64,000 bases of DNA from Sipunculus nudus (lineage: Eukaryota > Annelida > Sipuncula > Golfingiida > Sipunculidae). The DNA is taken from positions 58,376,250 to 58,440,249 of the forward strand of contig CM049318.1 of the NCBI GenBank assembly GCA_026874595.1, given 5' to 3'. The translations under genes were made by a program, and so were the position numbers. Shown here piece after piece: positions 6,985 through 64,000 of the stretch (within the stretch, counting starts at the first letter, position 1; the number at the start of each line of letters is the position of its first letter). A model generated the notes under the pieces. It worked only from the letters and a program-made list of their open reading frames with translations, searched no databases and was not told where the DNA came from.

Positions 6985-7270
6985 CACACTTTACTTTTAC
7001 ATTATTGTCCCCGCCAGGAGGGTATGCTCTCATTCCCGTTCGTTTGTGTGTTTGTGTAGGTATGATACTGATTACTAAATGGTATATTACTATGATCACC
7101 TTGTCGGCAAGTTCACCCTCCTATAATAAAACACACGTAGGGGTTATATAGATGTGAGACTGACCACTGTCCACCGAATGTTTGGAATGAGTAGACCAAT
7201 GGCCAATCATTAATTAACATTACTCCGATTGTTTAATTAATTTAATAATTGTCCGATTTTATTTCTTAAG

Positions 7271-7482
7271 GTCCAGGGTTTTATGTCGCATATAGTTACC
7301 GTAAAGTTTGGGCTAATATGGATATGTATACATTGATCTATTTACACATGATGGAAAGAGAACATAAAAAGCTAAAGGAATCACAGTTGACCAAAACAAC
7401 TTATCGGTTTTGTGCATATGTATGTGTGAATAAACGTAAAACTGAAAAAGACACTAAGATATTGAGGGCATTGATATTATAG
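7271..7482 (+). CDS. 212-nt terminal-exon-like ORF, U0 (intact)
   Basis: A pyrimidine-rich tract ending TTTCTTAAG precedes the exon. If the incoming phase is 1 (as from the signal-peptide exon), it encodes R-P-G-F-Y-V-A-Y-S-Y-R-K and continues open for 70 codons to a TAG after I-L-x-A-x-I-L. The product is basic and Tyr-rich, with one Cys, and matches no family I recognise. No signal exon lies upstream in the window because U0 is the first copy. Differences from the U4 and U5 copies are mostly amino-acid changing. Confidence 0.3.
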
Positions 7483-7552
7483 GACTGTTTCATCCATTTC
7501 ATCTCATTATCCTAACCAAATCAATACATTTCTCAGATCAATAATGCCTCAT

Positions 7553-8440
7553 CAATCTATGATACTGATAAGCACCCCCCCCCCCCCCCGATCAATTTAA
7601 ATCATGATACAAAAGCTCCAGTAGCTGAATAACTAATGCATTGAATGCCATGATTCTTTCCATGCATATTGATCATAGTGTTTAATCAGTTCGTGAAAAT
7701 TGATGGCGTCATCAAGTAGTCTCTTCGTTAACACGGCATGTACCATAACAATTTGACCTAGAAACTTTTAATTGTATATTTAGGGAAGTCCTTGGTAAAT
7801 CTACTTGGAAACCTGATATTAGGTCAAAGCGACGTATAGTTTTCATACTTCAGGCTTTTAACATTATTCTGAGCACCAAGTGAGTCAATGGGCACAAAGT
7901 ATTTTATTTGGCCTAGAATCTTTTAACACGACATTCAGAGAGTAAATCCTGGGTAAATCTCTGTGCAAACCTGAGTGAGGTTATGTTGACCTATATTCTG
8001 CAAGATATGTTTAAAAAGATGATTGAGCACTCTTTTGGGGAAATTTGCATTATTGGTTACAGTTGGACCTAGAAACGTCTAAAACCTAATCGTCGTCGGT
8101 TCCTCTAAAATTTCTTGGATCCCTGAATTAATGTTACTGTGACCCATAAACTGTTACCTATGAGGACGGATATTATTTTAGGACTCCGTAGTCAGATGGG
8201 CACAAATGTGCAGCAGTTGGAAAAAGAAACTTCTAACTTAGCAATTTGGCAGTTGCTGGTAAAATCTTTATAGAAAGCCTACATAAGGTCACTGTAACCT
8301 ATTTCCAAGGACAACTGGCAAAATGCATGAATCTGAGCAAACTTGAAATCATTTTACCCAACGTTTAAGGTACCTAGAATATAGTTTAGCGTCATTGCCC
8401 ATTTGCCACTTGTTATAATTACAATTTACGGCAACCTTTG
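7553..8440 (+). mobile_element. Pearl/HINE-like element, U0 (head missing)
   Basis: Only the poly-C and the later cores remain; the bases before CCT of each core fall at 7756, 7911, 8067, about 8221 and 8372, showing the 151-156-bp period clearly. Confidence 0.5.
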
Positions 8441-9019
8441 AAGCCACTGCCGACGTTCTTAGATGTAATGTAAACTAATACACCTTCTGCACGAGCATGC
8501 GCATTGTGCATAATGATCATAAGCTCTGCTCCGGTCCAGTTATTCAGCATTGTCTTGTTTTTTTTTCAATTAAAATCATTGTCCTTTGTTGAAGGTCTTT
8601 CCTTGCCTCCATTGATCAATTAGCGAAACATTTTTAATAATCTTGAAAACTAGGAATCAATAGTTGATCGGAGCTGTTATTTGCAATACAACATTTGAAA
8701 TATCTGGTACTAGTAACGGTGGCAGGTAAAATTATATGAGCATTAATAAGATTTCTTTACATAGAGCAACAAATGACTAACCAAATTGTTGTTTTTGCCA
8801 ACCTATTGAGACGATGTGTCAAAAATGCAAATTTGGTCAGTATTGGAAGACGTGATCGAAAGGTGATTAGATATTCGCCTTGGGCATAATTTTATAATTA
8901 GATACTAATCATTACTCTGGATAGATTACATGCTATGTTGTCTTATTTGCTCCCAAATAAAGACATATTATATAAATCATCCTCATTACGGTCAGTCCGA
9001 AAGAAGTTAGGGGGGTTCT

Positions 9020-9409
9020 ATGATAACGGTCGAAGCCAAGCTGTGTTTTAGTTTCTCAAAGATAGTTGCTTTTGATAAAGACTTAAATCGTGGTCAGAAC
9101 TATTTGACAGAAAATCGTTGTCAAATAGCCAGTCGCAGATCAATTTCAAAGAAAGACCACCGACTGGCTTATTATAGCTGCAACAAACAAATGCAGTATC
9201 TGACTTTGTGCTTAATCAGTTTTCAAGAAAAAATTAAATCTTCATGTATAGAATTACTGGACGTCTCGCTCCATTCGGGCAATAATCAGTTTGTGATTGT
9301 TTCGACAAAAGGACCCCATAATTTAAATTTTATAAAGCCAGGCAACCTATCTTCGGATCTATTTGATATATGTCTAAATAGCGCTGCACAGGTTTATCAA
9401 TCGTCCTGA
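9020..9409 (+). pseudogene. Longest array ORF (129 aa), U0, relic of a 3' unit ORF
   Basis: Real ATG, M-I-T-V-E-A-K-L-C-F-S-F-S-K, through N-R-G-Q-N-Y-L-T-E-N-R-C-Q-I-A to Y-Q-S-S-stop. Other copies have the same frame preceded by a longer start (M-F-R-K-Q-H-L-R, about 90 bp upstream), but each is broken at a different site: GAT TAA in U1, ATT TAA in U2 and U3, a deletion in U4, TTT TGA in U5. U0 lost the upstream half through one extra G in a G-run. Hydrophilic, no motif recognised. Confidence 0.3.
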
Positions 9410-9744
9410 AAAGAAACTAGCCCAGCACTGAGGGTGCTCAAATTAGATTTTTCCCGTGTATCACTTAAGCCAGCTATTAAGTTTAAAAAGTAATGGTACC
9501 AGGATTTCTTTGGAGGAAAAGTTGGACTTTCTAAATGCAATAATATTTGCAGTCTTAGGGATTTCCAAACGATATAAATAAGGTACCAGCGTTATAGTCC
9601 AACGGTGAACTCTCCAAAATGTAAAAAGTCATACCATGTGATCTATTCACATTTTAAAAGCAGACCAGGACTTATGAAGGTGATGCCAATGATGACCTGT
9701 ATGGATAATCGTCGTCCAGGGAAAACCTAAATGCACACTTTGCT

Positions 9745-9890
9745 TTTACATTATTGTCCCCGCCAGGAGGGTATGCTCTCATTCCCGTTCGTTTGTGTGT
9801 TTGTGTAGGTATGGGACTGATTACTAAATGTTATGTATGGTACTATAATCACCTTGTCGGCAAGTTCACCCTCCTTTAATAAAACACACG
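9745..9890 (+). repeat. TIR-like dispersed repeat at the unit start, U1 (copies in every unit)
   Basis: GTCCCCGCCAGGAGGGTATG followed by a T/G-rich stretch (gttcgtttgtgtgtttgtgtagg) and a closing GTCGGCAAGTTCACCCTCC. It resembles a widespread marine-invertebrate interspersed repeat whose end reads CCGCCAAGGAGGTTATG. Other copies start near 7005, 19258, 28450, 37018, 48668 and 61767. The related repeat at 11083-11283 lies in the opposite orientation. Confidence 0.45.
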
Positions 9891-10022
9891 TGTGGGTTAT
9901 ACAGATGTGAGACTGACCACTGTCCACCGAATGTTTGGAATGAGTAGACCAATGGCCAATCATTGATTAACGTTACTCCGATTGTATCATTAATTAATAA
10001 TTGTCCGATTCTTTTTCTTAAG

Positions 10023-10231
10023 GTCCAGGGTTTTATGTCGCATATAGTTACCGTAAAGTTTGGGCTAATATGGATATGTAAACATTGATCTATTTACACA
10101 TGATGGTAAGAGAACATAAAAAGCTAAAGGAATCACATTTGACCAAAACAACTGTATTTTGTGCATATGTATTTGTGAATAAACGTAAAACTGAAAAATA
10201 CACTAAGATATTCAGGGCATTGATATTATAG
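10023..10231 (+). pseudogene. 212-nt exon-like ORF, U1 (broken)
   Basis: Acceptor intact, but a stop replaces Tyr after M-D-M, and a short deletion near 10152 shifts the frame. Confidence 0.4.
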
Positions 10232-10432
10232 GACCGTTTCATCCGTTTCATCTGATTATCCTAACCAAATCAATACGTTTCTCAGATCAATATTGCCTCA
10301 TCAACGGACACAAGCGGACTCCTTGAAGTCTCAACTGGTGGATGGATATGTTTCGGGCTTTAAGTCAAAATCTGCAGTTGCTTTTTTTTAAATGGTAGGT
10401 TTATTAACGTATATCTTTCAAATACCTTATAG

Positions 10433-10867
10433 GATTCAACGGATATTATATTAGCGGCCTTTAAATTTACAAATAACAAAGGTCAATCACCATATATATG
10501 TGTGTATCAAGCAGACATATTGATCCCACTGCCGATCAGACACATATCAGACACTTGTGTTGCTATCAAATATCATACATTATTTGACAGTATAACCCCA
10601 GCAGTACAGTCTAATTAGCAAAGAGGAAAGCAGGACCTGTTAGTGTTCATAGCAAAAGGGGTGCACGGTATACTACGGCTGGCTTTATATTCGCGGGTTT
10701 TATTTTTTTCAACAAAAGCAGGACGAATCCAAACAGAAACTATATCAAGAGTATTATTTACATGTAGTAAATTATCCAATTTAACATTGTATTCATTAAA
10801 GGAAAGTATTTGTGGTTGGTTGCCTGGAACGTTTATTAAACCTTTGTCATTCCTGAGAACTTTCTAA
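10433..10867 (+). pseudogene. 145-codon open block, U1 (one internal TAG)
   Basis: A TATAG acceptor-like end is followed by a frame starting D-S-T-D-I-K-L and ending P-L-S-F-L-R-T-F-stop. A TAG lies at about codon 62, where U5 has TGG (Trp); U1 is otherwise open. One frame staying open over 435 bp of AT-rich DNA in several copies suggests an exon remnant. It has a hydrophobic middle (V-F-I-A-K-G-V-H-G-I-L). No family recognised. A further short ORF (M-P-H-Q-R-T-Q-A-D) lies just upstream in most copies, ending at a GTAGGT donor, but joining the two gives no open frame. Confidence 0.4.
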
Positions 10868-11082
10868 TTGAAATACCGTCGTTGGACATCCAGGAATTGC
10901 CGCCCTTGAAAATTAAAAATAACGAACAACAACAATACTCCCGCTGCTTTACGTTGATTAACAGGCACCTTTCAAGGTAACGCCAATGTGACGTCATTGT
11001 CCTCTGTGACATCACGTCTGTTATGTGACGACTCACATGGCCATATCCTCATATGTTACGTCCCCTTGTAAACAAATGTGCT

Positions 11083-11283
11083 CTAAAACCCCCATAAGAA
11101 ACACTTTCCCGGATTATTTGCGCATAGATTACCCCAAAATTTACTTAGTGGTCCCTTTGTATCTTTATCGAGTTTTCCTGAAATTTCACAAAATCCATTA
11201 ATAACGTTTTTGAGTATTGTTGCTAAGAGACGAACACACAGACGAACCAACGGCATCAAAAACATAACCACTGCCATTCGGCA
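11083..11283 (-). repeat. Inverted TIR-like dispersed repeat, U1
   Basis: On the minus strand it reads GGCAGTGGTTATGTTTTTGA then TGCCGTTGGTTCGTCTGTG, GGATTTTGTGAAATTTCAGG and ACAAAGGGACCACTAA. This matches, as recalled, a common interspersed repeat of bivalves and other marine invertebrates. Open frames on this strand are by-products of the repeat. Confidence 0.5.
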
Positions 11284-11299
11284 GATTTAAAAATAAAAC

Positions 11300-11392
11300 T
11301 CATTATAACAATAATAACAATAAATAAATAATAAATAATATAATTAATAATAATAGAGTTGTAATAATAATAATAATAATAGTAATATAATG
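11300..11392. repeat. TAA/ATA microsatellite, U1
   Basis: AATAATAAC and TAATAA units of variable length. Homologous tracts: 20795-20878, 29845-29945, 38541-38640, 50217-50258 continuing at 54246-54294 after the LINE, and 63300-63412. Length varies greatly between copies. Confidence 0.85.
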
Positions 11393-11527
11393 TAATATAT
11401 TGAACTGAGGGGCTATGTGATATCAGGAAACTTGGTTATACATTAGAAAGAAAATCATTCATCAGGTCTGATTTATATCGTTTTATATGTATAACATTAT
11501 TTTGAACCCTTAGCCCCCCCCCCCCGA

Positions 11528-11812
11528 TTATGCCCAAATGCCCATTAAAGCCTTAGATCCATCATAAATGAATGCATACGCATTATATTCGTGAAGGAGG
11601 ATATGTTTATTATCATTCAGGAGGTAATCTTCATGTGTACAGTATGAAAAATGTAGGCAAACAACTTCACTCCTAAATATCAGGAAGCTGTTGTCTATGT
11701 AATTTTGACTTAACGGTGTGGTCGGTACCCCTGAGTCCCAAATGACCGGAGTACCCCTTAATCCCCAAGTCGAGTTGTACTTAAAGGGACGATGGCCTCT
11801 ACAAACCTCCAC
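11528..11812 (-). other. Minus-strand open frame after the poly-C tract, U1
   Basis: Open for 94 codons from a GTG (no ATG), containing F-L-I-F-R-S-E-V-V-C-L-H-F and H-E-Y-N-A-Y-A-F-I-Y-D. Shorter versions stay open in U2 (21029-21211), U3 (30098-30289) and U6 (63542-63754). An insertion of caata-type sequence separates the halves in other copies. Coding is not supported beyond persistence of the frame. Confidence 0.2.
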
Positions 11813-11869
11813 TCGAAATACTGCATTGTTGTGCTATACAAAATAATTCAATTTAAACACAAGCTTTAA

Positions 11870-12065
11870 GAATGAATTGGAAATACAAGATCTCTTCTCA
11901 GATATAATACGTAAATTTGTGTGTATAAGTGGACTTTTGCAATTTAAGTTCCAAAAAATTTGTCCACCATATGAAAAATCTCACTTGGGGCAAATAATAG
12001 ATCCCTTATTAGGTAATATTTTTATACTCTCTTTTAAAAATGATAAATATATAAATAGAACCTAA
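11870..12065 (+). other. Open frame I-Q-D-L-F-S-D-I-I-R-K, U1
   Basis: An open stretch of about 60 codons without ATG support; U2, U3 and U4 have a TAA or other changes near the middle. No family recognised. Confidence 0.15.
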
Positions 12066-12389
12066 TGTGTAAACAAAATCTCAGTCAACTGATTAGCCGA
12101 TAGCATTTTCATGCAAATAAGTATTTACTAATAGTAATCAGTCAACGGCATAAGACTAGAAAAAAAAGTATGATTTATAGGTTTTAAATCAAACTTAGAT
12201 TTATTTTTATTCAAGTCAAATAATATGCGTATTCATTACTTCTTCTCCATTAACGATACACACATTATCGTTCCATGTTATAAACCTAGTCAAGAAATCA
12301 AGTTAATTTAATTTTATACTATCAAATTCCAAGCCTTGTCAAACTTGTGGGTTAAAACGTCTCGATCTGTGTATAGCTTCTGTAGAAAC

Positions 12390-12548
12390 ATGGCTGTAGC
12401 AATTTGTTTATTAAGGATATTTGTATTTTTTTACCCTCTCAATAGCACACAGTTACCAAAATAATACCCTTAAAATACGGGCGCTGGTCGGTCGTAAGCT
12501 ATAGGGACTTATTATTTCAGTTATTCATGGACCTATTTACGAATTCTA
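12390..12548 (+). pseudogene. Small secreted-peptide-like ORF, U1 (frameshifted)
   Basis: The start and signal part are kept, but seven Ts after GTA replace six and shift the frame to an early stop. Confidence 0.35.
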
Positions 12549-12819
12549 GAATTAAAACTCATATACATTTTAAGCTAGTTTTAATCATTTTAATCCACTC
12601 TAACACTTTGTCTGACTTTTGTTAACATCTACTGGGACTTCACAGAGTGAAAGAAGGCTACCCCTAAAAAACATAATTCCACAATAATTTGGCGGATATA
12701 TTGTATATATTTATGGTAATTTGCCATATATGCTAACATTCGAGTAGTGCTGCCTATTAGATAAAAGTCCATTGTATAAACATGGTTTCTCCTTATCTAA
12801 ATATTTATTCCAGTGTTAG

Positions 12820-13430
12820 TGACAGGGTGGCAATACTACAAGTTTGTGGTTGAATATAACCATGCACCTTGGGGGTACGCCCAACGGTCGGTCACTTCCA
12901 CTGAAATATCATTTTTTTCCAACTTTATCAGTTCTTTAGCTCAGGTCACCAGATATAATTTTTTAGCAAAAAAAATGGATATGTTTTCCTGCTACATGAC
13001 GTGTAAACATTTGCATGCTCTGGCTCTGATTATAACCCACTAAATTTGATGACTCGCTGATTCACCACCATGACTTTCTAAAATATGCATACCTTAATGC
13101 CATGACAACGTTATAATGCTTCCTGATTCTCATTGTTTTTTTCTGGAAGGACAGCCGTAAATTGCACGTGAAGCGATATCAGCAAACTTCCATTCAACGG
13201 TTCAACTAATTTTAACATACCCCCTCCCAAACATGATTCCACATGAATAAACTTTGCCAAAATGTCGGATATAATGGAATCAGTTATATTTATACAAATT
13301 GTCTGATCAGATCCTTTATTATAGCTTTCGGAGCAGCCAGTCATCTATTATAAATTTTGCTGTAGTAAATAAAAACATAATTTTAAGATACGCCCAGTGG
13401 TCGGTCGTTTGCACCGAGATCTATTTATCA
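12820..13430 (+). repeat. Two related segments around TACGCCCA..GGTCGGTC, U1
   Basis: Segment A (about 12836-12910) and segment B (about 13345-13425) align at about 65% by eye, sharing TACGCCCA-nn-GGTCGGTC and then a CACnGAnATnT stretch. Translated in one frame they share F-x-V and Y-A-Q-x-S-V-x-x-T-E-I. A weaker third relative lies at 12477-12500 (ACGGGCGCTGGTCGGTCG). All long units carry them, about 510 bp apart. They look like an old internal duplication, perhaps of an exon or a short repeat. Confidence 0.35.
13111..13344 (-). other. Minus-strand open frame kept in three units (U1)
   Basis: True ATG (13342-13344), M-T-G-C-S-E-S-Y-N-K-G-S-D-Q-T, 77 codons. Also open at 22519-22749 and 56025-56246; in U3 the ATG is lost and in U4 an extra C shifts it. 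The peptide start Y-N-K-G-x-D-Q-T resembles conceptual translations of dispersed repeats in marine invertebrates, as recalled, so a repeat origin is more likely than a gene. Confidence 0.25.
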
Positions 13431-13865
13431 TCTCTCTGATAAACATATAAAGTGGATTAGAAACAAGAGCCTGGTTCTATATGGCGAACCATTAAAAAGG
13501 GAACATAATTTCTTTAATTAAAGACCAGTCCTAAGCATAAACCAAAACAAATTAATGTGGCAAAATCATGGTAGGGAATTAGTCCCATATGCAAATTATT
13601 CATTGTCTGATACTGAAATGCTCACATGTTTTACACAGTTTGTCTAATAAACAGGCATTTATGATAGATCCATAAAGTAATTTAGAAACCAGAGACTGAC
13701 TCAATATAATGAACATTAAAAGAGGAAAACATAATTTCATCTAGTAAAAATCTGAGAATACAGGATTTTTATTAAATAATTTTAATTGAATGATGAAGTT
13801 TTATATATGGAAAATCTAACCCCAGCTCGACAACTTTAAATTACTGACAGTTACAAACAGCTGAA

Positions 13866-14069
13866 TTGAGGAAGCAATGCTTTAAAATAATAAGCCAGGA
13901 AAAAGAAAATGAAAGCGTTCTCCCAAATATCGTGGATGCTACGACCTGCGCGCACTATCACTGCGCTTTATCAATACTAAAACAACACGTCTATATGCAA
14001 GTTATCATTGTCTTGCACAGTCTCGTAAATGATAATCAACAGATATTATTTGTCATAACGTACGTCTAG
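13866..14069 (+). other. Conserved open frame upstream of the signal exon, U1
   Basis: Open from a TTG (no ATG) through R-K-Q-C-F-K-I-I-S-Q-E-K-E-N-E to ...I-L-F-V-I-T-Y-V-stop. An acceptor-like TTACTGACAG lies just before. The frame is also open at 32434-32637, 41126-41329 and 44396-44599, but broken in U2 (deletion) and U5 (TGC to TGA). It could be part of a transcribed 5' region of the signal-exon gene; coding is not shown. Confidence 0.25.
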
Positions 14070-14157
14070 AACATCATTTTAACAGCCAAAATAGTGTAAA
14101 TAAACAAGTGAGATACTACCGCCACGTGATCCTTCTCGCAGACTCCTGTAGGACAGT

Positions 14158-14221
14158 ATGGCGACTTTAGTGGTCGGAATGATGTTTTTACTGGCAGGCA
14201 CGCTTTCTGTGCAAGGGCAAC
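14158..14221 (+). CDS. Signal-peptide first exon, U1 (partial CDS, 64 nt)
   Basis: An ATG opens MATLVVGMMFLL...SVQGQ, a textbook secretory signal: short N-terminus, hydrophobic core V5-L16, small residues, and a likely cleavage near V-Q-G/Q. The exon ends after one base of the next codon (phase 1) at a perfect donor GTGAGT (14222). An E-box CACGTG sits 30 bp upstream (14123-14128). No TATA box is evident. The next exon is not certain: the first phase-compatible acceptor ORF found is the 212-nt exon 5.3 kb downstream in U2 (19521), which is broken. The protein would be secreted; its function is unknown. Confidence 0.55.
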
Positions 14222-14588
14222 GTGAGTTATTTTTATTCTCTTAGTGTATATATTAAAAATGGCAACATACACACCACATTGCTTGCATTGGTAAAAAGCT
14301 AACACTTTGGTACCAGGTTCCTACATAATAAATATATGGGTTAAATATATTAACAATAACACTAATTATTCTTTATATGGTACTGTTATCACAAAATAAA
14401 AATAATGAGCCTAGTGGGTAATACATTGCATGTACACACTGGACTGGCAACACACACACCACATTTTTTGGACTTGTAAAAATCTAAAAGCTTTACCACA
14501 CGATTTGTTTAATAATCAAATATTTCAAACTTCGATGTATTTGTAATATTTTTAACATATTAATTATAACACACCTTATATTTTTTAA

Positions 14589-14816
14589 ATGGTACTTGTT
14601 TTATCGTTGTTAATGATTTGCAAGTACAATATGTGTTGTAAACACAAAAATACTAAATTGGAAGTTAGACCAAAAAAAAAAAAAAAAAGAACTGCGGACC
14701 TTGAATGTATCTCCGTTTGTGGTAACAGGGTTATAAGAAAAAGCATGTTCACAAATTTAAGACAAGTTAGGGATTTGTTTACTACTATGTTTACTCCGTT
14801 TACTTCAGAACTATGA
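14589..14816 (+). pseudogene. ORF relic with poly-Lys slippage tract, U1
   Basis: A true ATG opens M-V-L-V-L-S-L-L-M-I-C-K-Y-N, then a lysine run encoded by a long A-tract, then R-T-A-D-L-E-C-I-S and T-N-x-R-Q-V-R-D-L-F-T-T-M-F. In other copies the A-tract has 8-10 As (U4 with an extra GGGG) and the frame breaks there. After the tract most copies keep a frame through N-Y-E-G-I-T-Y-D-L-L-L-S-L-K-S-L-Q-L to a TAG near L-Q-R. No family recognised. Confidence 0.25.
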
Positions 14817-14995
14817 AGGCATCACTTATGATCTCCTTTTGTCACTTAAATCTTTACAACTAAAATATACCGTCAACATTAGCAAAGATAGAGCCATTTA
14901 TATTGACATACCCGAATAAAAGAGCACTCTGCAAAACTCAAATGCTTCCGTTAACACCTGCCATGGCATCTCTAATCCAAGACGGTTTTATACAT

Positions 14996-16400
14996 TTTTA
15001 GCTCAGCTGATTCAAAGTCAACTGGGCTATAGCGTTCCCTCTTTTTCCGTCGTCCGTCCTTCTAGTCTTCCCTTCGTTAACAAGGCACAAATCTTAACCG
15101 CTGGACTTAGAAACTTCTAACTGTACATCCTTGGAGAGCCGTTAAATATCCTCGGATATCTGAAACTAGGTCACTGCTATAGGGCTCGAATTACCCCCAA
15201 ATAAAGCTAAAATTTTGACACAAAATTCCATTTTCTGAATACATGATGCATTGATTGCCATGATTCTTGATTGCCGGGTTTCATCACTCCTGAATACTGG
15301 TTGCGCCACCTAAATTTTGTTAAATGTTTCCGCATTGTTCTCTCTCTTTTATTGAGACCTTCAAATAAGCAGTACCCAGAGATTATGTGCATCCAGTGAC
15401 CACTGGACCTAGAACCATCTAACTGCAGACCCGTGGAGATCCATACATTAGGTCAATGCAACTTCTATTCATAAGCTATGAGGCCCAAAAGCACCCCCCC
15501 CCCCGATCAATTTAAAAAAGATAAAAAAGCTCCAGTATCTGAATAACTAATGCATTGAATGCCATGATTCTTTCCATTCATATTGATCATAGTGTTTAAT
15601 CAGTTCCTGAAAATTGCTGGCGCCATCAAGTAGTCTTTTCGTTAACAGGGCATGTACCATAACAATTTGACCTAGAAACTTTTAATTGTTTATCTAGGGA
15701 AGTCCTTGGCAACTCTACTTGGAAACCTGATATTAGGTCAAAGCGACGTATAGTTTTCGTACGTCAGGCTTTAAACATTATTCTGAGCACCAAGTGAGTC
15801 AATGGGCACAAAGTATTTTATTTGGCCTAGAATCTTTTAATATGACATTCAGAGAGTAAATCCTGGGTAAATCTCTGGGCAAACCTGAAATGAGGTTATG
15901 TTGACCTATATTCTGCAAGATATGTTTAAAAAGATGATTGAGCACTCTTTTGGGGAAATTTGCATTATTGGTTACAGTTGGACCTAGAAACGTCTAAAAC
16001 CTAATCGTCGTCGGTTCCTCTAAAATTTCTTGGATCCCTGAATTAATGTTACTGTGACCCATAAACTGTTACCTATGAGGACGGATATTATGTTAGGACT
16101 CCGTAGTCAGATGGGCACAAATGTGTAGCAGTTGGAAAAAGAAACTTCTAACTTAGCAATTAGGCAGTTGCTGGTAAAATCTTTATAGAAAGCCTACATA
16201 AGGTCACCTTAACCTTTTTCAAAGGACAACTGGCAAAATGCATGAATCTGAGCAAACTTGAAATCATTTTACCCAACGTTTAAGGTACCTAGAATATAGT
16301 TTAGCGTCATGGCCCATTGGCTACTTGTTATAATTACTATTTACGGCAACCTCTGAACCCTCTGCCGACGTTCTTAAATGTAATGTAAACTAATACACCC
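14996..16400 (+). mobile_element. Pearl/HINE-like bivalve element with ~155-bp core repeats, U1
   Basis: It starts TTTTTAGCTCAGCTGATTC with an imperfect hairpin (TAGCTCAGCTGA / GTCAACTGGGCTA) and a CCGTCGTCCGTCC stretch, a head seen in many bivalve dispersed repeats. Core repeats follow, each with a version of GGGCACAAA...TTGGACCTAGAAACTTCTAA and TTAGGTCA. Cores sit near 15101, (15250, very weak), 15403, 15665, 15821, 15977, 16131 and 16283, spaced about 151-156 bp in the better part. Non-autonomous: no transposase or Rep/helicase frame inside. The link to Helitron-related pearl elements is inference. Confidence 0.5.
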
Positions 16401-16419
16401 TCTGCACGAGCATGCGCAT

Positions 16420-17730
16420 TGTGCATAATGATCATAAGCTCTGCTCCGGTCAAGTAATTCAGCATTGTCATGGTTTTTTCAATTAAAATCATTTTCCTTT
16501 GTTGAAGGGTCTCTCCTTGCCTCCATTGACCAATTAGCGAAATATTTTTAATAATCGTGAAAACTAGGAATCAATAGTTGATCGGAGCTGTTATTTGCAA
16601 TATAACATTTGAAATATCTGGTACTAGTTACGGTGGCAGGTAAAATTATATGAGCATTAATATTATTTTTTTTAAATAGAACAACAATCGACTAATCAAA
16701 TTGTTGTTTTTGCCAACCTATTGAGATGATGTGTCAAAAATGCAAATATGGTCAGTATTGGAAGACGTGACCGAAAGGTGATTAGATATTCGCCTTGGGC
16801 ATAATTTTATAATTAGATACTAATCATTACTCTGGATGCTGGAGACTGAACGACAAAAATCTTGCTTTATACAAACATTTATTCAAACAATTTTGGATCA
16901 TGTTTGTGCAATGTTACGACATTGTTAGAGAAAAGACAAATCAATGGAGAAAAAAAAGGAAAATTAATTGAAAAAAAATTCTTCAATAACCTAGAACATC
17001 AATCTATTTGAAAAGTTGATTACCCAGAAAAAAATAAAAGGTTGTAATGATATGATATCTTCAGTTATTCAAATGTCATGAAAGTACAGTACTTTACGGT
17101 TTGTTGAAATTACGTTGTAGGGTCAAATTTGTAAGCTTCCTTGCGCCCCATGGCATAAATAAAACTATTTATTTTCCTACAACGATCCCACCAGATTTAT
17201 AGTTGCTTAAAAGAACATTTTAGCAGTCAGGTTAAGTTTTGTAAACTTCAAAATGGCGGCAAATATGACAAACACATTGAAGAAGAATGTTTCAATTAAT
17301 TTGAGTCATTCAACGTAAATATTTTTACAGACTAAACTCTTCGGTGCAATTTTTTAACTGAGAGAAACCTAGATTTTTTTTGTGTTCCTTAACTTGACTA
17401 TATCACATTTCAAATATACAAGGGATTAGATAGAAATGGCCGCACCTTGTAACCTCAAATGATGACCAGTAGAGTGGCATAGAATGACTTTATTTTAAAT
17501 GGCCACGATGGGGCTTTTTTTATAGCGACCCACGATCGTCGTCTGTTCGGTGTTCCCCCTGTCCAGGAGGACGTCTGTTAACAAGGCACGTTTTGGAAAG
17601 TAAATACACTTATGCAAAATAGTGTTAATTGCATCATTTATACACTGGTGAATCTACAAGGATAATCTAATATAAAAGCTGCTTATATTTATAAGAAAGT
17701 GATTGATTTGAACTTACACTTGGCCATGTG
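16420..17730. other. AT-rich spacer with two ATGGC start-like motifs, U1
   Basis: It contains the relic of the M-L-E-T-E-R-Q-K ORF (16838-17000, broken here) and a short frame from aaaATGGCGGCAAATATG (17254) that runs 21 codons to S-H-S-T-stop. The AAnATGGCGGC context resembles a YY1-type start-site motif and is kept in U2 (26583), U4 (46730) and U5 (59819) but deleted in U3. No gene is supported. Confidence 0.3.
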
Positions 17731-17731
17731 T

Positions 17732-17951
17732 CCTCTATCTGGCCTGGTATCTGTTATAACCCATTTATTCCCTATCTGCTTTGGATCTATTATAGGTCAT
17801 TTTCCCAACTACGGTCCCGAGTCTATTTATAACCATTTAAACCCTGTCTGGCCTCCCGTATGTTGTAGTCCATTTATTCCCAGTCTGGTCTCGCACTTTA
17901 TAGGCCATTTATTTCCTGTCAGGCCTCGCATTCATTACAGGTTTATTATTC
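17732..17951 (+). repeat. 36-bp minisatellite, six units, U1
   Basis: Six degenerate units of 35-38 bp, pattern CCTGTCTGGCCTCGC...TATAGGCCATTTATTC. Because the period is about 12 codons, one frame stays open over the whole block (17699-17998), giving 12-residue repeats such as F-P-I-C-F-G-S-I-I-G-H-F and I-P-S-L-V-S-H-F-I-G-H-L. Confidence 0.7.
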
Positions 17952-18407
17952 CCAAATATTGTCGGCCCTGCAATCAATTAGAGTCTTGCATCTTTTAAAG
18001 GTTGTCTCTTTTTTTTTCTTGAATATTTGCTCTACTGTGTAAAATAAGCTTAGATAATGAAAATAAGGAGCCGTTATTACATGCAATTACGCGCAGACCT
18101 ATCTATCGACATCCGTGATAAACGTATTCGCCAGAGATTGCGGAAACTAATATTTTAACGGAGTTCCGCCGCCACCGCGTTCGTTTATTAAAAACTTTAC
18201 TGCCCCTGGATCGATCATTCTGAATCCCGGCATAATTAAGGGAAAGCAGGTGCACTTGTACCTCAAAAAAAGGTTGTTTGGGCAAACTACATTCTATTTT
18301 GCGTATTCGCAATTTTTTAGACTTATCTATGCGTCACATTACTGAAGGGTGCTTTGATGTAGGTCTGAAATTGTGCATGTCAATAGAAATACTTCGTATG
18401 TATGTTT

Positions 18408-18866
18408 AGAAAACAGCACCTAAGATTACATGCTATGTTGTCTTATTTGCTCCCAAATAAAGACATATTATATAAATCATCCTCAGTACGGTCAGTCCGA
18501 AAGAAGTTAGTGGGTTCTATGATAACAGTCGAAGCCAAGGTGTGTTTTAGTTTCTCAAAGATAGTTGCTTTGGATTAAGACTTAAATCGTGGTCAGAACT
18601 ATTTGACAGAAAATCGTTGTCAAATAGGCAGTCGCAGATCAATTTCAAAGAAAAACCACCGACTGGCTTATTATACCAACAACAAACAAATGCCGTTTCT
18701 GACTTTGTGCTTAATCAGTTCTCAAGAACAAATGGAATCTTCATGTATAAAATTACTGGACGTCTCGCTCCATTCGGGCAATAATCAGTTTGTGATTGTT
18801 TCAACAAAAGGACCCCATAATTTAAATTTTTATAAAGCCAGGCAACCTATCTTCGGATCTATTTGA
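18408..18866 (+). pseudogene. M-F-R-K-Q-H ORF relic, U1
   Basis: ATG at 18408. A stop from an inserted or changed T (ggaTTAAgac) interrupts after K-I-V-A-L-D; the frame is open again from 18603 to 18866. Confidence 0.25.
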
Positions 18867-19520
18867 TATATGTCTAAACGGCTCTGCACAGGTTTATCAA
18901 TCGTCCTGAAAAGAAACTAGCCCAGCACTGAGGGTGCTCAAATTAGAACTTTTCCCGTGTATCACTTAAACCAGCTATTAAGTTTAAAAGGTAGTGTTAC
19001 CAGGATTTCTTTGGATGAAAAGTTTGACATGTTAAATGCAATAATATTTCCAGTCTTAAGGATTTTCAAACGATATAAATAAAATACCAGCGTTATGGCC
19101 CAACGGTCAACTCTCCAAACAGTAAAAAGTCATACCATGTGATCTATTCCCATTTTAATAGCAGACCAGGACTTATGAAGGTGATGTCCATGATGACCTG
19201 TATGGACAATCGTCGTCCAGGGAAAACCTAAATGCAAACTTTACTTTTACATTATTGTCCCCGCCAGGAGAGTATGCTCTCATTCCCCTTTGTTTGTGTG
19301 TTTGTGTAGGCATGGTGCTGATTACTAAATGGTTTGTTACTATAATCACCTTGTCGGCAAGTTCACCCTCCTATAATAAAACACACGTAGGGGTTATATA
19401 GATGTGAGACTGACCACTGTCCACCGAATGTTTGGAATGAGTAGACCAAGGGCCAATCATTAATTAACATTACTCTGATTGTTTAACTAATTTATTAATT
19501 GTCCGATTCTTTTTCTTTAG

Positions 19521-19732
19521 ATCCAGGGTTTTATGTCGCTTATAGTTAACGTAAAGTTTGGGCTAATATGGATATGTACACAATGATTTATTCACACATT
19601 ATGGAAAGAGAACATAAAAAGCTAAAGGAATCACATTTGACCAAAACAACTTATCGGTTTTGTGCATATGTATTTGTGAATTAACGTAAAACTGAAAAAG
19701 ACACTAAGATATTGAGGGCATGGATGTTATAG
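19521..19732 (+). pseudogene. 212-nt exon-like ORF, U2 (broken)
   Basis: The acceptor is kept (tttctttag), but the first exon base is A rather than G, and Tyr10 to stop (AGT TAA) closes the frame early. Confidence 0.4.
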
Positions 19733-24319: not shown

Positions 24320-24395
24320 AAGAGCACTCTGCAAAACTCAAATGCTTCCGTTAACACCTGCCATGGCATCTCTAATCCAAGACGGTTTTATACAT

Positions 24396-29902: not shown

Positions 29903-29942
<40 letters not shown>

Positions 29943-54135: not shown

Positions 54136-54245
54136 AGAATTGAGTGTCATATAAACCCCTGCGAGGGTTGGGTACTATAAGCAGACTTTTATTATATTTT
54201 TTTCATGTATTATTGTACATGACACTATAATAAATAAACTCATTC
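54136..54245 (+). other. LINE 3'UTR and end
   Basis: A short 3' tail containing gcgagggttgggtactataa and closing AATAAATAAACTCATTC. The AATAAA could act as a polyadenylation signal. Confidence 0.6.
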
Positions 54246-55281
54246 AATATAATTAATAATAATAGAGTTTTTATAATAATAATAAAAATAATAACTGAGG
54301 GGCTATGTGATATCAGGAAACTTTGTTATACATAAGATAGAAAATCATTCATCAGGTCTGATTCATATCGTTTTATATGTATTACATTATTTTGAGCCCT
54401 CCCCCCCCCCCCCCCATTATGCCCAAATGCCCATAAAAGCCTTAGATCCATCATAAATGAATGCATACATTATTTTAGTGAAGGAGGATATGTTTTTTTA
54501 TTATTCAGGAGGTAATCTGCGTTTGTAAAGTATGAAAAATGTAGGCAAACAACTTCACTCCTAAATATCAGGAAGCTGTTGTCCATGTAATTTTGACTTA
54601 ACGGTGTGGTCAGTACCCCTGAGTCCAATACAAATGACCGGAATACCCCTTAAGCCCCAAGTCGAGTTGTAATTAAAGGGACGATGGCCTCTACAAACCT
54701 CCACTCGAAATACGGCATTGTTCTGCTATACAAAATAATTCATTGTAAACACAAGCTTTAAGAATGAATTGGAAATAAAAGATCTCTTCTCAGATATAAT
54801 ACATAAATTTGTGTGTATACATGGACGTTTGTAATTTAAGTTCCAATAAATTTGGCCACCATATGAAAAATCTCACTAGGGGCAAATAATAGATCCCTTA
54901 TTAGGTAATATTTGTATACTCTCTTCTAAAAATAATAAATATATAAATAGAACCTCATGTGTAAACAAAATCTCAGTCAACTGATTAGCCGATAGCAGTT
55001 TCATACAAATAAGTATTTAATAATAGTTATCAGTCAACGGCATATGACCAGAAAAAAAAGTATGATTTATAGGTTTTAAATCAAACTTAGATTAATTTTT
55101 ATTCAAGTCAAATAAAATGCGTATTCATTACTTCTTCTCCATTAACGATACACACATTATCGTTCCATGTAATAAACCAAGTCAAGAAATCAAGTCAATT
55201 TAATTTTATACTATCAAATACCAAGCCTTGTCAAACTTGTGGGTTAAAACGTTTCGATCTGTGTGTAGCTTCTGTAGAAAC

Positions 55282-55441
55282 ATGGCTGTAGCAATTGGTA
55301 TATTAAGGATATTTGTATTTTTTTACCCTCTCCATAGCACACAGCTACCAAAATAATATCCTTACAATACGGGCGCTGGTCGGTCGTAAGCTACAGGGAC
55401 TTATTAGGTCGGTTATTCATGGACCTTTTTACGAATTCTAG
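55282..55441 (+). pseudogene. Small secreted-peptide-like ORF, U5 (frameshifted)
   Basis: Seven-T frameshift; flanks well conserved. Confidence 0.35.
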
Positions 55442-57059
55442 AAATAACTCATAGACAATTAAATTTAGTTTTAATCATTTTAATCAACTCTAACACTTTG
55501 TCTGACTTTTGTTAACATCTACTGGGACTTCACAGAGTGAAAGAAGGCTACCCCTAAAAAACATAATTCCACAATAATTTGGCCGATATATTGTATATTT
55601 ATAGGTAATTTGTCATGTATGCTAACATTCGAGTAGTGCTGCCTACTAGATAAAAGTCCATTGTATAAACATAGCTTCTCCTTATCTAATTATTTATTCC
55701 AGTGTTAGTGACAGGGTGGCAATACTACAAGTTTGCGGTTGAATATAACCATGCATCTTCGGGGTACGCCCAACGGTCGGTCACTTAGACTGAAATATCA
55801 TTGTTCTCCAACTCCATCAGTTCTATAGCTGTAGTCATGAACCTGATTTAATTGATCAGGTCACCAGATATAATTTTTTAGCAACAAAATGGTTATGTTT
55901 TCCTGCTACATGACGTATAAACATTTGCATGCTGTGGCTCTGATTATGACTCACTAATTTTGATGACTCGCTGATTCACCACCATGACTTACTAAAATGT
56001 GCATACCTTAATGCCATGACAACGTTATAATGCTTCCTTATTCTCCTTTTTTTCTGGAAGGACCGCCGTAAATTGCCTGTGAAGCGATATCAGCAAACTT
56101 CCATTCAACAGATCAACTAATTTTAACATATCCCCTCCCAAACATGATTCCACATGAATAAACTTTGCCAAAATGTCGTTATACAAATAAGTTATACAAA
56201 TTGTCTGATCAGATCCTTGATTATAGCTTTCGGAGCAGCGAGTCATCTATTATAAATTTTGCTGTAACAAATAAAAAACATAATTTTAAGATACGCCCAG
56301 TGGTCGGTCGTTTGCACCGAGATCTATTTATCATCTCTCTGATAAACAAAGAAAGTGGATTAGAAACAAGAGCCTGGTTCTATATGGCGAACCATTAAAA
56401 ATGGAACATAATTTCTTTAATTAAAGACCAGTCCTAAGCATAAACCAATACAAATTTATGTGGCAAAATCATGGTAGGGAATTAGTCCCATTTGCAAATT
56501 ATTCATTGTCTGATACTGACATGCTCACATGTTTTACACAGTTTGTCTAATAAACTGGCATATATGATAATTCCATAAAGTAATTTAGAAACCAGGGACT
56601 GACTCAATATAATGAACATTAAAAGGGGAAAATATAATTTCATCTAGTAAAATCTGAGAATACAGGATGTTTATTAAATAATTTTAATTGAATGGTGAAG
56701 TTTATTATAAGGAAAATCTAACCCCAGCTCGACAAATTTAAATTACTGACAGATACAAACAGCTGAATTGAGGAAGCAATGCTTTAAAATAATAAGCCAG
56801 GAAAAAGAAAATGAAAGCGTTCTCCCAAATATCGTGGATGCTCGGACCTGAGCGCACTATCACTTCGCTTTATCAATACTAAAACAACAAGTCTATATGC
56901 AAGTTATCATTGTCCTGCACAGTCCCGTAAATGATAATCACCAGATATTATTTGTCATAACGTACGTCTAGAACATCATTTTAACAGCCAAAATAGTGTA
57001 AATAAACAAGAGAGATACTACCGCCACGTGATCCTTCTCGCAGACTCCTGTAGGACAGT

Positions 57060-57123
57060 ATGGCGACTTTAGTGGTCGGAATGATGTTTTCACTGGCAGG
57101 CACGCTTTCTGCGCAAGGGCAAC
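57060..57123 (+). CDS. Signal-peptide first exon, U5 (partial CDS)
   Basis: Substitutions L11S and V18A relative to U1; hydrophobic core shortened but plausible. Donor GTGAGT and the CACGTG E-box are kept. The partner exon in U6 (62029) contains a stop. Confidence 0.5.
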
Positions 57124-57895
57124 GTGAGTTATTTTTTTTTCTTAGTGTATATATTAAAAATGGTAACATTCGCACCACGTTGCTTGCGTTGGTTAAAAGC
57201 TATCATTTTTGGTACCAGGATCCTACTTAATAATTATATATGGGTAAAATATATTAACAATAACACTAATTATTCTTTATATGGTACTGTGATCACAAAA
57301 TAAAAATAATGAGCCTAGTGGGTAATACATTGCATGTACACACTGGACTGGCAACACACACACCACATTGTTTGGACTTGTAAAAATCTCAAAGCTTTAC
57401 CACACGATTTATTTAATAATTAAATGTTTCAAACTTCGATGTATTGGTAATATTTTTAACATATTAATAATAACACCCCTTTATATGTTTTAAATGGTAC
57501 TTGTTTCATCGTTGTTAATGATTTGCAAGTACAATATGAGTAGTAAACTCAAAAATACTAAATTGGACGTCAGACCAAAAAAAAAAGGACTGCGGACCTG
57601 AAATGTATCTCCATTCGTGGTAACAGGGTTATAAGAAAAAGCATGTTCACAAATTTTAGACAAGTTAGCGATTTGTTTACTACTATGTTTTACTCCGTTT
57701 TATTTCAGAACTATGAAGGCATCACTTATGATCTCCTTTTGTCACTTAAATCTTTACAACTAAATATATACCGTCAACATTTGCAAAGATAGAGCCATTT
57801 ATATTGACATACCCGAATAAAAGGGCACTCTGCAAAACTCAAATGCTTCCGTTAACACCTGCCATGGCATCTATAATCCAAGACGGTTTTATACA

Positions 57896-58920
57896 TTTTT
57901 AGCTCAGCTGATTCAAAGTCAACTGGGCTATAGCGTTCCCTCTTTTTCCGTCGTCCGTCCGTCTAGTCTTCCCTTCGTTAACAAGGCACAAATCTTAACC
58001 GCTGGACTTAGAAACTTCTAACTGTACATCCTTGGGGATCCGTAATATCTCCTTGGATATCTGAAACTAGGTCACTGCTATGGGGCTTGAATTACCCCCA
58101 GAAAAAGCTAAAATTTGACACAAAAATTCCATTTTCTGAATACATAATGCGTTGATTGCAATGATTCTTGATTGCCGGGTTTCATCACTCCCGAATACTG
58201 GTTGCGCCACTTAATTTTTTTTTAATGTTTCCGCATTGTTCACTCTCTTTTATTAAGACCTTCAAATAAGCAGTACCCGGAGATTTTGTGCATCCAGTGA
58301 CCACTGGACATAGAACCTTCTAACTGCAGACCCGTGGAGATCCATACATTAGGTCACTGCAACTTCTATTCTATAAACTATGAGGCCCAAAAGCACCCCC
58401 TCCCCCGATCAATTTAAATCATGATACAAAAGCTCCAGTATCTTAATAACTAATGCATTGGATGGCATGATTCTTTCCATGCATATTGATCATAGTGTTT
58501 AATCAGTTCCTGAAATTTGGTGGCGCCATCAAGTAGTCTTTTCGTTAACAGTGCATGTGCCATTACGATTTGACCTAGAAACTTTTAATTGTATATCTAG
58601 GGAAGTCCTTGGCAAATCTACTTGAAAACCTGATATTAGGTCAAAGGACCGATATTATTTTAGCACTCCGTAGTCAGCTGGGCACAAATGTGTAGCAGTT
58701 GGAAAAAGAAACTTCTAACTTAGCAATTTGGCAGTTGCTGGTAAAATCTTTATAGAAAGCCTACATAAGGTCACTGTAACCTATTTCCAAGGCCAACTGG
58801 CAAAATGCATGAATCTGAGCAAACTTGAAATCATTTTACCCAACGTTTAAGGTACCTAGAATATAGTTTAGCGTCATGGTCCATTGGCAACTTGTTATAA
58901 TTACAATTTACGGCAACCTT
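57896..58920 (+). mobile_element. Pearl/HINE-like element, U5 (cores partly deleted)
   Basis: Complete head; a deletion near 58647 joins one core (ttaggtcaaag) to a later one (gaccgatatt). Confidence 0.5.
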
Positions 58921-59405
58921 TGAATCCTTTGCCGACGTTCTTAAATGTAATGTAAACAAATACACCTTCTGCACGAGCATGCGCATTCTGCATAATGATC
59001 ATAAACTCTGCTCCGGTCAAGTAATTCAGCATTGTCATGCTTTTTTTCAATTAAAATCATTGTCCTTTGTTGAAGGGTCTCTCCTTGCCTCCATTGACCA
59101 ATTAGCGAAACATTTTTAATAATCGTGAAAACTAGGAACCAATAGTTGATCGGAGCTGTTATTTGCAATACAACGTTTGAAATATCTGGTACTAGTTACG
59201 GTGGCAGGTAAAATTATATGAGCATTAATAAGATTTTTTTTTTACATAGAGCAACAATTGACTAATCAAATTGTTGTTTTTGCCAACCTATTGAGATGAT
59301 GTGTCAAAAATGCAAATATGGTCAGTATTGGAAGACGTGATCGAAAGGTGATTAGATATTCGCCTTGGGCATAATTTTATAATTAGATACTAATCTTTAC
59401 TCTGG

Positions 59406-59648
59406 ATGCTGGAGACTGAACGACAAAAATATTGCTTTATACAAACATTTATTCAAACAATGTTGGATCATATTTGTGCAATGTTACGACATTGTATGAG
59501 AAAAGACAAATCAATGGAGAAAAAAAGGAAAATTAATTTAAAAAAACATTCCTCAATAACCTACAACATCAATCTATTTGAAAAGTTGATTACCCAGAAA
59601 AAAATAAAAGGTTGTAATGATATATCTTCAGTTATGCAAATGTCATGA
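59406..59648 (+). pseudogene. M-L-E-T-E-R-Q-K ORF relic, U5 (80 aa)
   Basis: Real ATG at 59406 (ctctggATGCTGG), Cys and Lys containing, ending S-V-M-Q-M-S-stop. Homologous stretches in U1-U3 have early stops (H-C-stop in U1), and U0 and U4 lost it. Lysine-rich middle from A-runs. No function recognised. Confidence 0.2.
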
Positions 59649-60298
59649 AAGTACATTACTCCACTGTTTGTTGAAATTACGTTGAAGGGTCAAATTTGTA
59701 AGCTTCCTTGCACCCCATGGCATAAATAAAACTATTTATTTTCCAACAACGATCCCACCAGATTTATAGTTGCTTATAACAACATTTTAGCAGTCAGGTT
59801 AAGTTTTGTAAACTTCAAAATGGCGGCAAATATGACAAACACATTGAAGAAGAATAATTCAATTAATTTGAGTCATTTAACGTAAATATTTTTACAGACG
59901 CAACTCTTCGGTGCAATTTTTTAACTGAGAGAAACATAGATTTTGTTTGTGTTCCTTAACTTGACTATATCACATTTCGAATATACAAGGGATTAGATAG
60001 AAATGGCCGCACCTTGTAACCTCAAATGATGACCAGTAGGGTGGCATAGAATGACTTTATTTTAAATGGCCATGACCGGGCTTTTTTTATAGCGACCCAC
60101 GACCGTCGTCTGTTCGGTGTTCCCCCTGTCGAGGAGGACGTCTGTTAACAAGGCACGTTTTGGAAACTAAATACACTTATGCAAAATAGTGTTAATTGCA
60201 TCATTTATACACTGGTGAATCTACAAGGATAATCTAATATAAAAGCTGCTTATATTCATAAGAAAGTGATTGATTTGAACTAACACTTGGCCATGTGT

Positions 60299-60515
60299 CC
60301 TCTGTCTGGCCTGGTATCTGTTATAACCCATTTATTCCCTATCTGCTTTGGATCTATTATAGGTCATTTTCCCAACTACGGTCCCGAGTAGTTTAACCAT
60401 TTAAACCCTGTCTGGCCTCCCGTATCTTCTAGTCCATTTATTCCCTGTCTGTTCTCGCACTTTATAGGCCATTTATTTCCTGTCAGGCCTCGCATTCATT
60501 ACAGCTTTATTATTC
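60299..60515 (+). repeat. 36-bp minisatellite, U5
   Basis: Six units with a small deletion in the third (gagtagtttaacc), which breaks the frame. U3 lacks the block; U0 lost it too. Confidence 0.7.
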
Positions 60516-60678
60516 CCAAATAATGTCTGCCCTCCATTCATTTACAGAATCTTGCATCCTTTAAAGGTTGTCACTTTTTTTCTTGAATATTTGCTCTACT
60601 GTGTAAAATTAGCTTAGATAATGAAAATAAGGAGCCGTTCTTACATGCAATTACGCGCAGACCTCTATAATTACATCC

Positions 60679-60972
60679 GTGATAAACGTATTCGCCAGAG
60701 ATTGCAGAAACTATTATTTTAACGGAGTTCCGCCGCCACCGCGTTCGTTTATAAAAAACTTTACTGCCCCTGGATCGATCATTCTGAATCCCGGTATAAT
60801 TAAGGGAAAGCAGGTGCACTTGTACCTCAAAAAAGATCGTTGGCGCAAACTACATTCTATTTTGCGTATTCGCAATTTTTTAGACTTATCTATGCGTCAC
60901 ATTTCTGAAGGATGCTTTGATATAGGGCTGAAATTGTGCATGTCCATAGAAATACTTCGTATGTATGTTTAG
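60679..60972 (+). pseudogene. F-I-K-N-F ORF relic upstream of M-F-R-K-Q-H, U5
   Basis: Open for 97 codons (no ATG; ATT start). It contains R-S-F-I-K-N-F-T-A-P-G-S-I-I-L-N-P-G-I and R-H-I-S-E-G-C-F-D-I-G-L, and ends M-Y-V-stop where the next ORF starts in another frame. U1, U2 and U4 carry shorter or shifted versions (for example 27302-27535 and 47586-47786). No family recognised. Confidence 0.2.
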
Positions 60973-62028
60973 AAAACAGCACCTAAGATTACATGCTATG
61001 TTGTCTTATTTGCTCCCAAATAAAGACATATTATATAAATCATCCTCATTACGGTCAGTCCGAAAGAAGTTAGGGGGTTCTATGATAACAGTCGAAGCCA
61101 TGCTGTGTTTTTGATTCTCAAAGATAGTTGCTTTGGATGAGGACTTAAATCGTGGTCAGAACTATTTGACAGAAAATCGTTGTCAAATAGCCAGTCGCAG
61201 ATCAATTTCAAAGAAAAACCACCGACTGGCTTATTATAGCTACAACAAACAAATGCAGTTTCTGACTTTGTGCTTAATCAGTTCTCAAGAAAAAATGGAA
61301 TCTTCATGTATAAAATTACTGGACGTCTCGCTCCATTCTGGCAATAATCAGTAATCATCTTCGGATCTATTTGATATATGTCTAAACGGCACTGCACAGG
61401 TTTATCAATCGTCTTGAAAAGAAACTAGCCCAGCACTGAGGGTGCTCAAATTAGATCTGTTCCCGTGTATCACTTAAGCCAGCTATTAACTATTAAAAGG
61501 TAGTGTTACCAGGATTTCTTTGGATGAAAAGTTGGACTTTTTAAATGCAATAATATTTCCAGTCTTAAGGATTTCCAAACGATATAAATAAAATACCAGC
61601 GTTATAGCCCTACGGTCATCTCTCCAAAATGTAAAAAGTCATACCATGTGATCTATTCCCATTTTAATAGCAGACCAGGACTTATGAAGGTGATGTCCAT
61701 GATGACCTGTATGGACAATCGTCGTCAAGGGAAACCTAAATGCACACTTTACTTTAACATTATTGTCCCCGCCAGGAGGGTATGCTCTCATTCCCCTTTG
61801 TTTGTGTGTTTGTGTAGGTATGGTGCTGATTACTAAATGGTATGTTACTATTATCACCTTGTCGGCAAGTTCACCCTCCTATAATAAAACACACGTAGGG
61901 GTTATATAGATGTGAGACTGACCACTGTCCACCGAATGTTTGGAATGAGTAAACCAATGGCCAATCATTAATTAACATTACTCCGATTGTTTAATTAATT
62001 TAATAATTGTCTGATTTTGTTTCTTAAG

Positions 62029-62240
62029 GTCCAGGGTTTTATGTCGCATATAGTTACCGTAAAGTTTGGGCTAATATGGATATGTATACATTGATCTATT
62101 CACACATGATGGAAAGAGAACATAAAAAGCTAAAGGAATCACATTTGACCAAAACAACCTATCGGTTTTGTGCATATGTATTTGTGAATAAACGTTAAAC
62201 TGAAAAAGACACTAAGATATTGAGGGCATGGATATTATAG
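62029..62240 (+). pseudogene. 212-nt exon-like ORF, U6 (broken late)
   Basis: Open until codon 57, where CGT TAA replaces CGT AAA; acceptor intact. Confidence 0.4.
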
Positions 62241-62443
62241 GACCGTTTTCTCCGATTCATCTCATTATCCTAACCAAATCAATACATTTCTCAGATCAAT
62301 AATACCTCATCAACGGACACAAGCGGACTCCTTGAAGTCTCAAATGGTGGGTGGATATGTTTCGGGCTTTAAGTCAAAAGCTGCAGTTGCTGTTTTTTTT
62401 AAATGGTAGGTTTATTAACGTATATCTTTCAAATACCTTATAG

Positions 62444-62878
62444 GATTCAACGGATATTAAATTAACGGCCTTTAAATTTATAAATAACAAAGGTCAATCA
62501 CCATATATATGTGTGTATCAAGCAGACATATTGATCCCACTGCCGATCAGAAACATATCAGACACTTGTGCTGCTATCAAATATCATACATTATCTGACA
62601 GTATAACCCCAGCAGTACAGTCTACTTAGCAAAGAGGAAAGCAGGACCTGTTAGTGTTCATAGCAAAAGGGGTGCACGGTATACTACGGCTGGCTTTATA
62701 TTCGCGGGTTTTAATTTTTTCGACAAAGGCAGGACGAATCCAAACAGAAACTATATCAAGAGTATTCTTTACATGTAGTAAATTATCCAATTTAACATTG
62801 TATTCATTAAACGAAAGTATTTATGGTTGGTTGCCTGGAACGTTTATTAAACCTGTGTCATTCCTGAGAACTTTCTAA
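62444..62878 (+). pseudogene. 145-codon open block, U6
   Basis: Only the shared TAG interrupts; otherwise open to the TAA at 62876-62878. Confidence 0.4.
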
Positions 62879-63078
62879 TTGAAATACCGCCGTTTGACAT
62901 CCAGGAATTGCCGCCCTTGAAAATAAAAATAACGAACAAGAACAATACTCCCGCTGCTTTACGTTGATTAACAGGCACCTTTCAAGGTAACGCCAATGTG
63001 ACGTCATTGTCCTCTGTGACATCACGTCTGTTATGTGACGACTCACATGGCCATATCCTCATATGTTACGTCCCCTTG

Positions 63079-63287
63079 TAAACAAATGTGCTGTAAAACC
63101 CCCATAAGAAACCCTTCCCCGGATTATATACGCATAGATTACCCCAAATTTAATTAGTGGTCCCTTTGAGATTTCCTGAAATTTCACAAAATCCATTAAT
63201 AACGTTTTTGATTATTGTTGCTAAGAGACAAACACACAGACGAACCAACGGCATCAAAAACATAACCACCGCCACTCGGCAGATTTA
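63079..63287 (-). repeat. Inverted TIR-like dispersed repeat, U6
   Basis: Same element, slightly shortened (ttgagatttcctg). Confidence 0.5.
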
Positions 63288-63299
63288 AAAATAATAGTC

Positions 63300-63369
63300 A
63301 CTATAACAATTATAATAACAATAAATAAGTAATAAATAATATAATTAATAATAATAGAGTTGTAATAAA

Positions 63370-63403
<34 letters not shown>

Positions 63404-63412
63404 GTAATATAT
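63300..63412. repeat. TAA/ATA microsatellite, U6
   Basis: Longest uninterrupted TAA run of the array apart from U3 (29905-29940). Confidence 0.85.
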
Positions 63413-63522
63413 TGAACTGAGGGGCTATGTGATATCAGGAAACTTGGTTATACATAAGAAAGAAAATCATTCATCAGGTCTCATTTATATCGTTTTATAT
63501 GTATAACATTATTTTGAACCCT

Positions 63523-63540
63523 CCCCCCCCCCCCCCCCCC
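63523..63540. repeat. Poly-C tract, U6 (two classes per unit)
   Basis: Eighteen Cs. Homologous first-class tracts near 11514, 20981, 30061 (interrupted by T), 38749 and 54401; second-class tracts (before gatcaattt) near 7575, 15494, 24817, 34070, 45968 and 58396. Confidence 0.85.
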
Positions 63541-64000
63541 ATTATACCCAAATGCCCATTAAAGCCTCAGATCCATCATAAATGAATGCATACGCATCAC
63601 ATTCGTGAAGGAGGATATGTTTATTATCATTCAGGAGGTAATCTTCATGTGTACAGTATGAAAAATGTAGGCAAACAACTTCACTCCTAAATATCAGGAA
63701 GCTGTTGTACATGTAATTTTGACTTAACGATGTGGTCAGTACCCCTGAGTCCAATACAAATGACCGGAGTACCCCTTAAGCCCCAATTCGAGTTGTAATT
63801 AAAGGGACGATGGCCTCTACAAACCTCCACTCGAAATACTGCATTGTTGTGCTATACAAAATAATTCATTGTAAACACAAGCTTTAAGAATGAATTGGAA
63901 ATGAAAGATCTCTTCTCAGATATAATACGTAAAATTGTGTGTATACGTGGACGTTTGCAATTTAAGTTCCTATAAATTTGTCCACCATATGAAAAATCTC

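Follow-up and report, generated by a model that had tools for sequence, protein, structure and literature searches.

The window analysed here, a stretch of 64,000 nucleotides from contig CM049318.1 of Sipunculus nudus, is occupied from position 6985 to its end (64000) by a direct tandem array, in which at least seven copies of one large unit follow each other head to tail (Table 1). Comparison of the window with itself by BLASTN, counting matches longer than 300 bp with E<1e-30, gave 66 rows of direct matches at identities of 88.7-99.97%; no such match arose in any of five first-order Markov versions of the window. When one unit (19235-28427) was mapped onto the window, it was found to begin at the seven positions at which the copies in Table 1 start, each time on the + strand. 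The copies comprise one at the left edge that has suffered heavy deletion, five that are near complete (U2-U6) and one truncated by the end of the window.

The first-pass annotation had described a large direct array with a visible left edge, made up of seven copies of a ~9.2-kb unit in one orientation and filling at least 57 kb. The array and its edge are borne out by self-BLASTN, by the mapping of the unit and by the sharp boundary at 6985, and the shared orientation stands, although U1 is short and U7 cut, which leaves five near-complete copies. The unit size was near the mark, but the consensus is 9540 bp long, exceeding the earlier figure because every copy has losses of its own. Similarly, the array does span 57 kb, but the DNA derived from the unit, summed over hand-set segments with the duplicate of a 3275-bp segment counted in, amounts to ~53 kb, the remainder being an insert in U6.

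The array's left edge fixed the phase of the unit. The 6984 bases in front of this edge show no similarity to the consensus of the unit in blastn at E<1e-3, and no fold was found at the edge itself (6890-7080, z 1.24). A degenerate short tandem repeat of ~23-25 bp occupies 6898-6980, immediately before the array. At the other end, U7 is still matching at the final base of the window, and the array therefore probably extends beyond it.

Table 1. Features of the window, numbered from its first nucleotide.
Feature	Positions	Strand	Remarks
Left flank, outside the array	1-6984		No match to the consensus in blastn at E<1e-3; six-frame Pfam search empty at E<=1
U1, left-edge copy, 2749 bp	6985-9733	+	Two big internal losses: one of ~5.2 kb at 7552, another of 1.6 kb at 8923
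U2, most complete copy, 9501 bp	9734-19234	+	From unit mapping and consensus
U3, 9193 bp	19235-28427	+	From unit mapping
U4, 8568 bp	28428-36995	+	From unit mapping; lacks ~775 bp at 35942
U5, 11650 bp	36996-48645	+	Holds the 3275-bp internal duplication; 643-bp loss at 46348
3275-bp segment, first copy	38945-42219	+	1 difference in 3275 from 42215-45489
3275-bp segment, second copy	42215-45489	+	Recent tandem duplication or assembly duplication
U6, 13097 bp	48646-61742	+	Contains the retrotransposon-like insert
3987-bp insert resembling a non-LTR retrotransposon	50259-54245	+	Located within U6's TAA tract, which is A+T-rich
U7, cut at window end	61743-64000	+	From unit mapping

Identity between copies ranges from 94.1 to 96.1% over the 21 pairs, corresponding to a divergence of 3.9-5.9%, and the distance of each copy from the consensus is 2.05-3.3%. 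The alignment contains 19 gaps of at least 25 columns, excluding that caused by the window end in U7, and two of these, in U3 and U6, overlap within the TAA tract. Homology at the junctions is 0-5 bp at all 19 gaps and absent at seven of them, values for which no chance expectation was computed; a few junctions have altered bases at the join. Both the differences of several percent between units and the deletions reported in the first-pass annotation are thereby recovered. Its other statements on the composition of the unit stand in part: of two homopolymer or microsatellite tracts said to lie in each unit, a (TAA)n tract is present in U2-U7, the corresponding region being missing from U1, but the poly-C run was followed in U1 only, at 7575. 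Likewise, the 'several repeat families' come down, as far as could be seen, to the TAA tract, the homopolymer and a small number of internal direct repeats, which are degenerate and have identities of 72-85%. Those located at 5360-6197 and 8037-8212 of the unit consensus, ~72-83% identical, probably predate the array.

Two candidate affiliations of the unit were rejected. As regards a transposon, U2 harbours 19 pairs of inverted repeats, 18-28 nt long and 70-89% complementary, none of which has an arm at the unit ends. As regards a relation to phages, 8000 bases of U3 (19235-27234) had no blastn match in a phage collection.

The length of U5 is explained by the presence of a 3275-bp part of it twice, in two copies that are far closer to one another, with a single difference, than any pair of whole copies. 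Such near-identity would result from a very recent duplication or, alternatively, from a mistake in the assembly. The contrast between one changed base in 42215-45489 and the 3.9-5.9% that separates the 21 copy pairs is also the observation that favours regarding the array as partly an assembly artefact, composed of haplotypes or of a wrongly repeated segment. However, seven copies lying 2-3% from the consensus, most of them with their own deletions, cannot represent two haplotypes, an argument that covers the array other than the 3275-bp duplication, and such an artefact appears very improbable.

The second departure from the regular pattern is the insert in U6, the uninterrupted insertion site of which is visible in U2; no other part of the window matches its bases 50259-54218. 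It is flanked by a 5-bp AATAT repeat (50254-50258 and 54246-54250), a candidate target-site repeat, but weak evidence on account of being short and in A+T-rich DNA. The insert encodes an endonuclease (Exo_endo_phos, 3.6e-11), two pieces of which, at 51515-51868 and 51869-52219, exceed the cut-offs of PF03372 and PF14529; the match to Exo_endo_phos_2 on one piece, over its cut-off, is at 8.3e-07, and the frame is broken by a stop at 51866-51868. An ORF at 50407-51537 gives a weak coiled-coil match, under the cut-off, and a long ORF of 646 aa (52195-54135) lies in a frame other than that of the endonuclease. A search of the first of the insert's ORFs in viral_contigs gave seven pattern matches, none of them confirmed. 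No reverse transcriptase domain family was detected in the three forward frames of the insert at E<=1. The element looks like a dead, internally deleted non-LTR retrotransposon; owing to the missing reverse transcriptase domain, it is not classed as a member of that group.

Exon-like pieces, or pieces of genes, had been proposed to lie in each unit by the first-pass annotation, but are not supported. At a threshold of E<=1, nothing was returned by Pfam from six frames each of U2, a single copy out of seven, and of the left flank, or by PDB from the three forward frames of U2, and single ORFs, three from the flank and two from the array, had no match in Pfam. Neither Rfam, at the gathering score, nor ARAGORN, in its bacterial setting, identified an RNA family or a tRNA respectively in the window. 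For the 43 consensus ORFs of at least 50 aa, synonymous, missense and stop-making changes were counted against the observed substitution spectrum, and convincing codon constraint was evident in none, those other than the ORF at 4970-5185 being judged by counts with no formal test. In the longest consensus ORF (159 aa), for example, synonymous changes number 18 (16.0 expected), missense changes 47 (48.7) and stops five (5.2), and a stop-making change is present in at least one copy in 32 of the 43 ORFs. The greatest relative synonymous excess, 13 changes against 7.3 expected, belongs to the ORF at 4970-5185 (binomial 0.019, or 0.81 when multiplied by 43). As far as domains in U2 and ORFs of at least 50 aa are concerned, the unit thus appears to be mostly non-coding, with no recognisable gene. 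The sparseness of coding sequence and the retrotransposon-like insert both point to a eukaryotic host.

The ORF at 4970-5185 overlaps the stretch of the unit that has diverged least. Divergence is unevenly distributed along the unit (chi-square 73.7, 38 df, 250-bp bins), and its lowest 250 bp, at consensus 5105-5354, were equalled in only three of 300 simulations; windows of 60, 90 and 150 bp show no unusual minimum, with 185, 155 and 56 of 300 simulations as low. A short conserved piece may be present within 5105-5354. This mildly conserved stretch speaks for an alternative in which the unit is an intron-rich gene duplicated in tandem, most copies having become pseudogenes, and in which the exons would be so short or so diverged as to escape domain searches; animal genomes often contain tandem gene families. 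Such an origin is nevertheless unlikely, given the empty searches of U2 (Pfam in six frames, PDB in the three forward frames) and, among ORFs of at least 50 aa, the number with a stop-making change and the lack of convincing constraint.

The relationships between the copies were reconstructed from U2-U6, with U1 and U7 excluded from both the tree and the counts of splits. The tree is near-star, its two internal branches, supported at 75 and 87, making up 4.06% of its summed length. At the 6911 sites where all of U2-U6 are present, there are 704 singletons and 105 2:3 splits, 73 of which join neighbouring units. This makes the real order of the units the best of 60, with the runner-up at 67; with five units, one in 60 is the best result attainable. 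U2 and U3 have 16 of the 105 two-unit variants in common, the third highest number among the ten pairs, and the sites shared by U5 and U6 are clustered, 11 of the 17 falling at consensus 2187-2794. The near-star tree, in combination with the variants shared by neighbours, indicates that the copies appear to have arisen close in time and that a faint trace of either stepwise duplication or exchange between neighbours persists; these two processes are indistinguishable here, and branch supports of only 75 and 87 leave room for the former. The earlier suggestion that the array has a history of its own was right.

The array is probably best explained by a burst of tandem amplification of 9.5 kb of mostly non-coding DNA, followed by independent and largely neutral decay. 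Head-to-tail amplification of the 9.5-kb stretch would have been rapid and driven by unequal exchange or by some replication-based mechanism; since then the copies would have drifted apart as largely neutral DNA. Amplification would have taken the form of a single burst, with weak exchange between neighbours since then; the deletions may have been made by end joining, and the array would be functionless. Running counter to such a burst and neutral decay are the uneven divergence, the low stretch at 5105-5354, the synonymous excess in the ORF at 4970-5185 and the modest branch supports. It is possible, but doubtful, that the burst was one event, for instance the reintegration of a multimeric circle or replication-based copying, in which case the array would form a nearly unhomogenised record of decay and neighbour exchange.

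The array belongs to a known kind of structure, being a segmental duplication of macrosatellite-like form; it is genuine but, as large tandem duplications go, ordinary, and does not reveal a new kind of element. Segmental duplications, in the description consulted, are at least 1 kb long and at least 90% identical. U2-U6 share both properties and, being adjacent, have those of tandem segmental duplications; the only difference seen from that description is that the copies of the array are in tandem and in a single orientation. As a direct tandem array of several-kb units, observed in one sequence, it also has the form of a macrosatellite. Those of the human genome include D4Z4, DXZ4, RS447, TAF11-Like, SST1 and ZAV (PMC3018141) and, as described there, likewise consist of several-kb units in direct tandem, with ZAV units similarly containing microsatellites and pieces of transposable elements (PMC3018141). 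By contrast, the unit of 9.5 kb exceeds the 2.4-5.3 kb given there for human macrosatellites, and the identity of 94-96% between copies is lower than the 99.3-99.7% of TAF11-Like and the 97-100% of SST1 on chromosome 4 (PMC3018141). The array further differs from human macrosatellites in having few copies in view and no conserved ORF that was found. Satellite DNA is described as having a variability under ~10% (PMC12692304), and the array resembles satellites undergoing concerted evolution in being tandem with variability below this level. Its near-star divergence and slight homogenisation are unlike theirs, and fit the non-concerted phase as characterised in the same source, in which homogenising events are reduced or absent (PMC12692304). 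The value of the locus is modest, and lies in being a little-homogenised tandem array where decay by substitution, deletion, insertion and partial duplication can be followed from one copy to the next.
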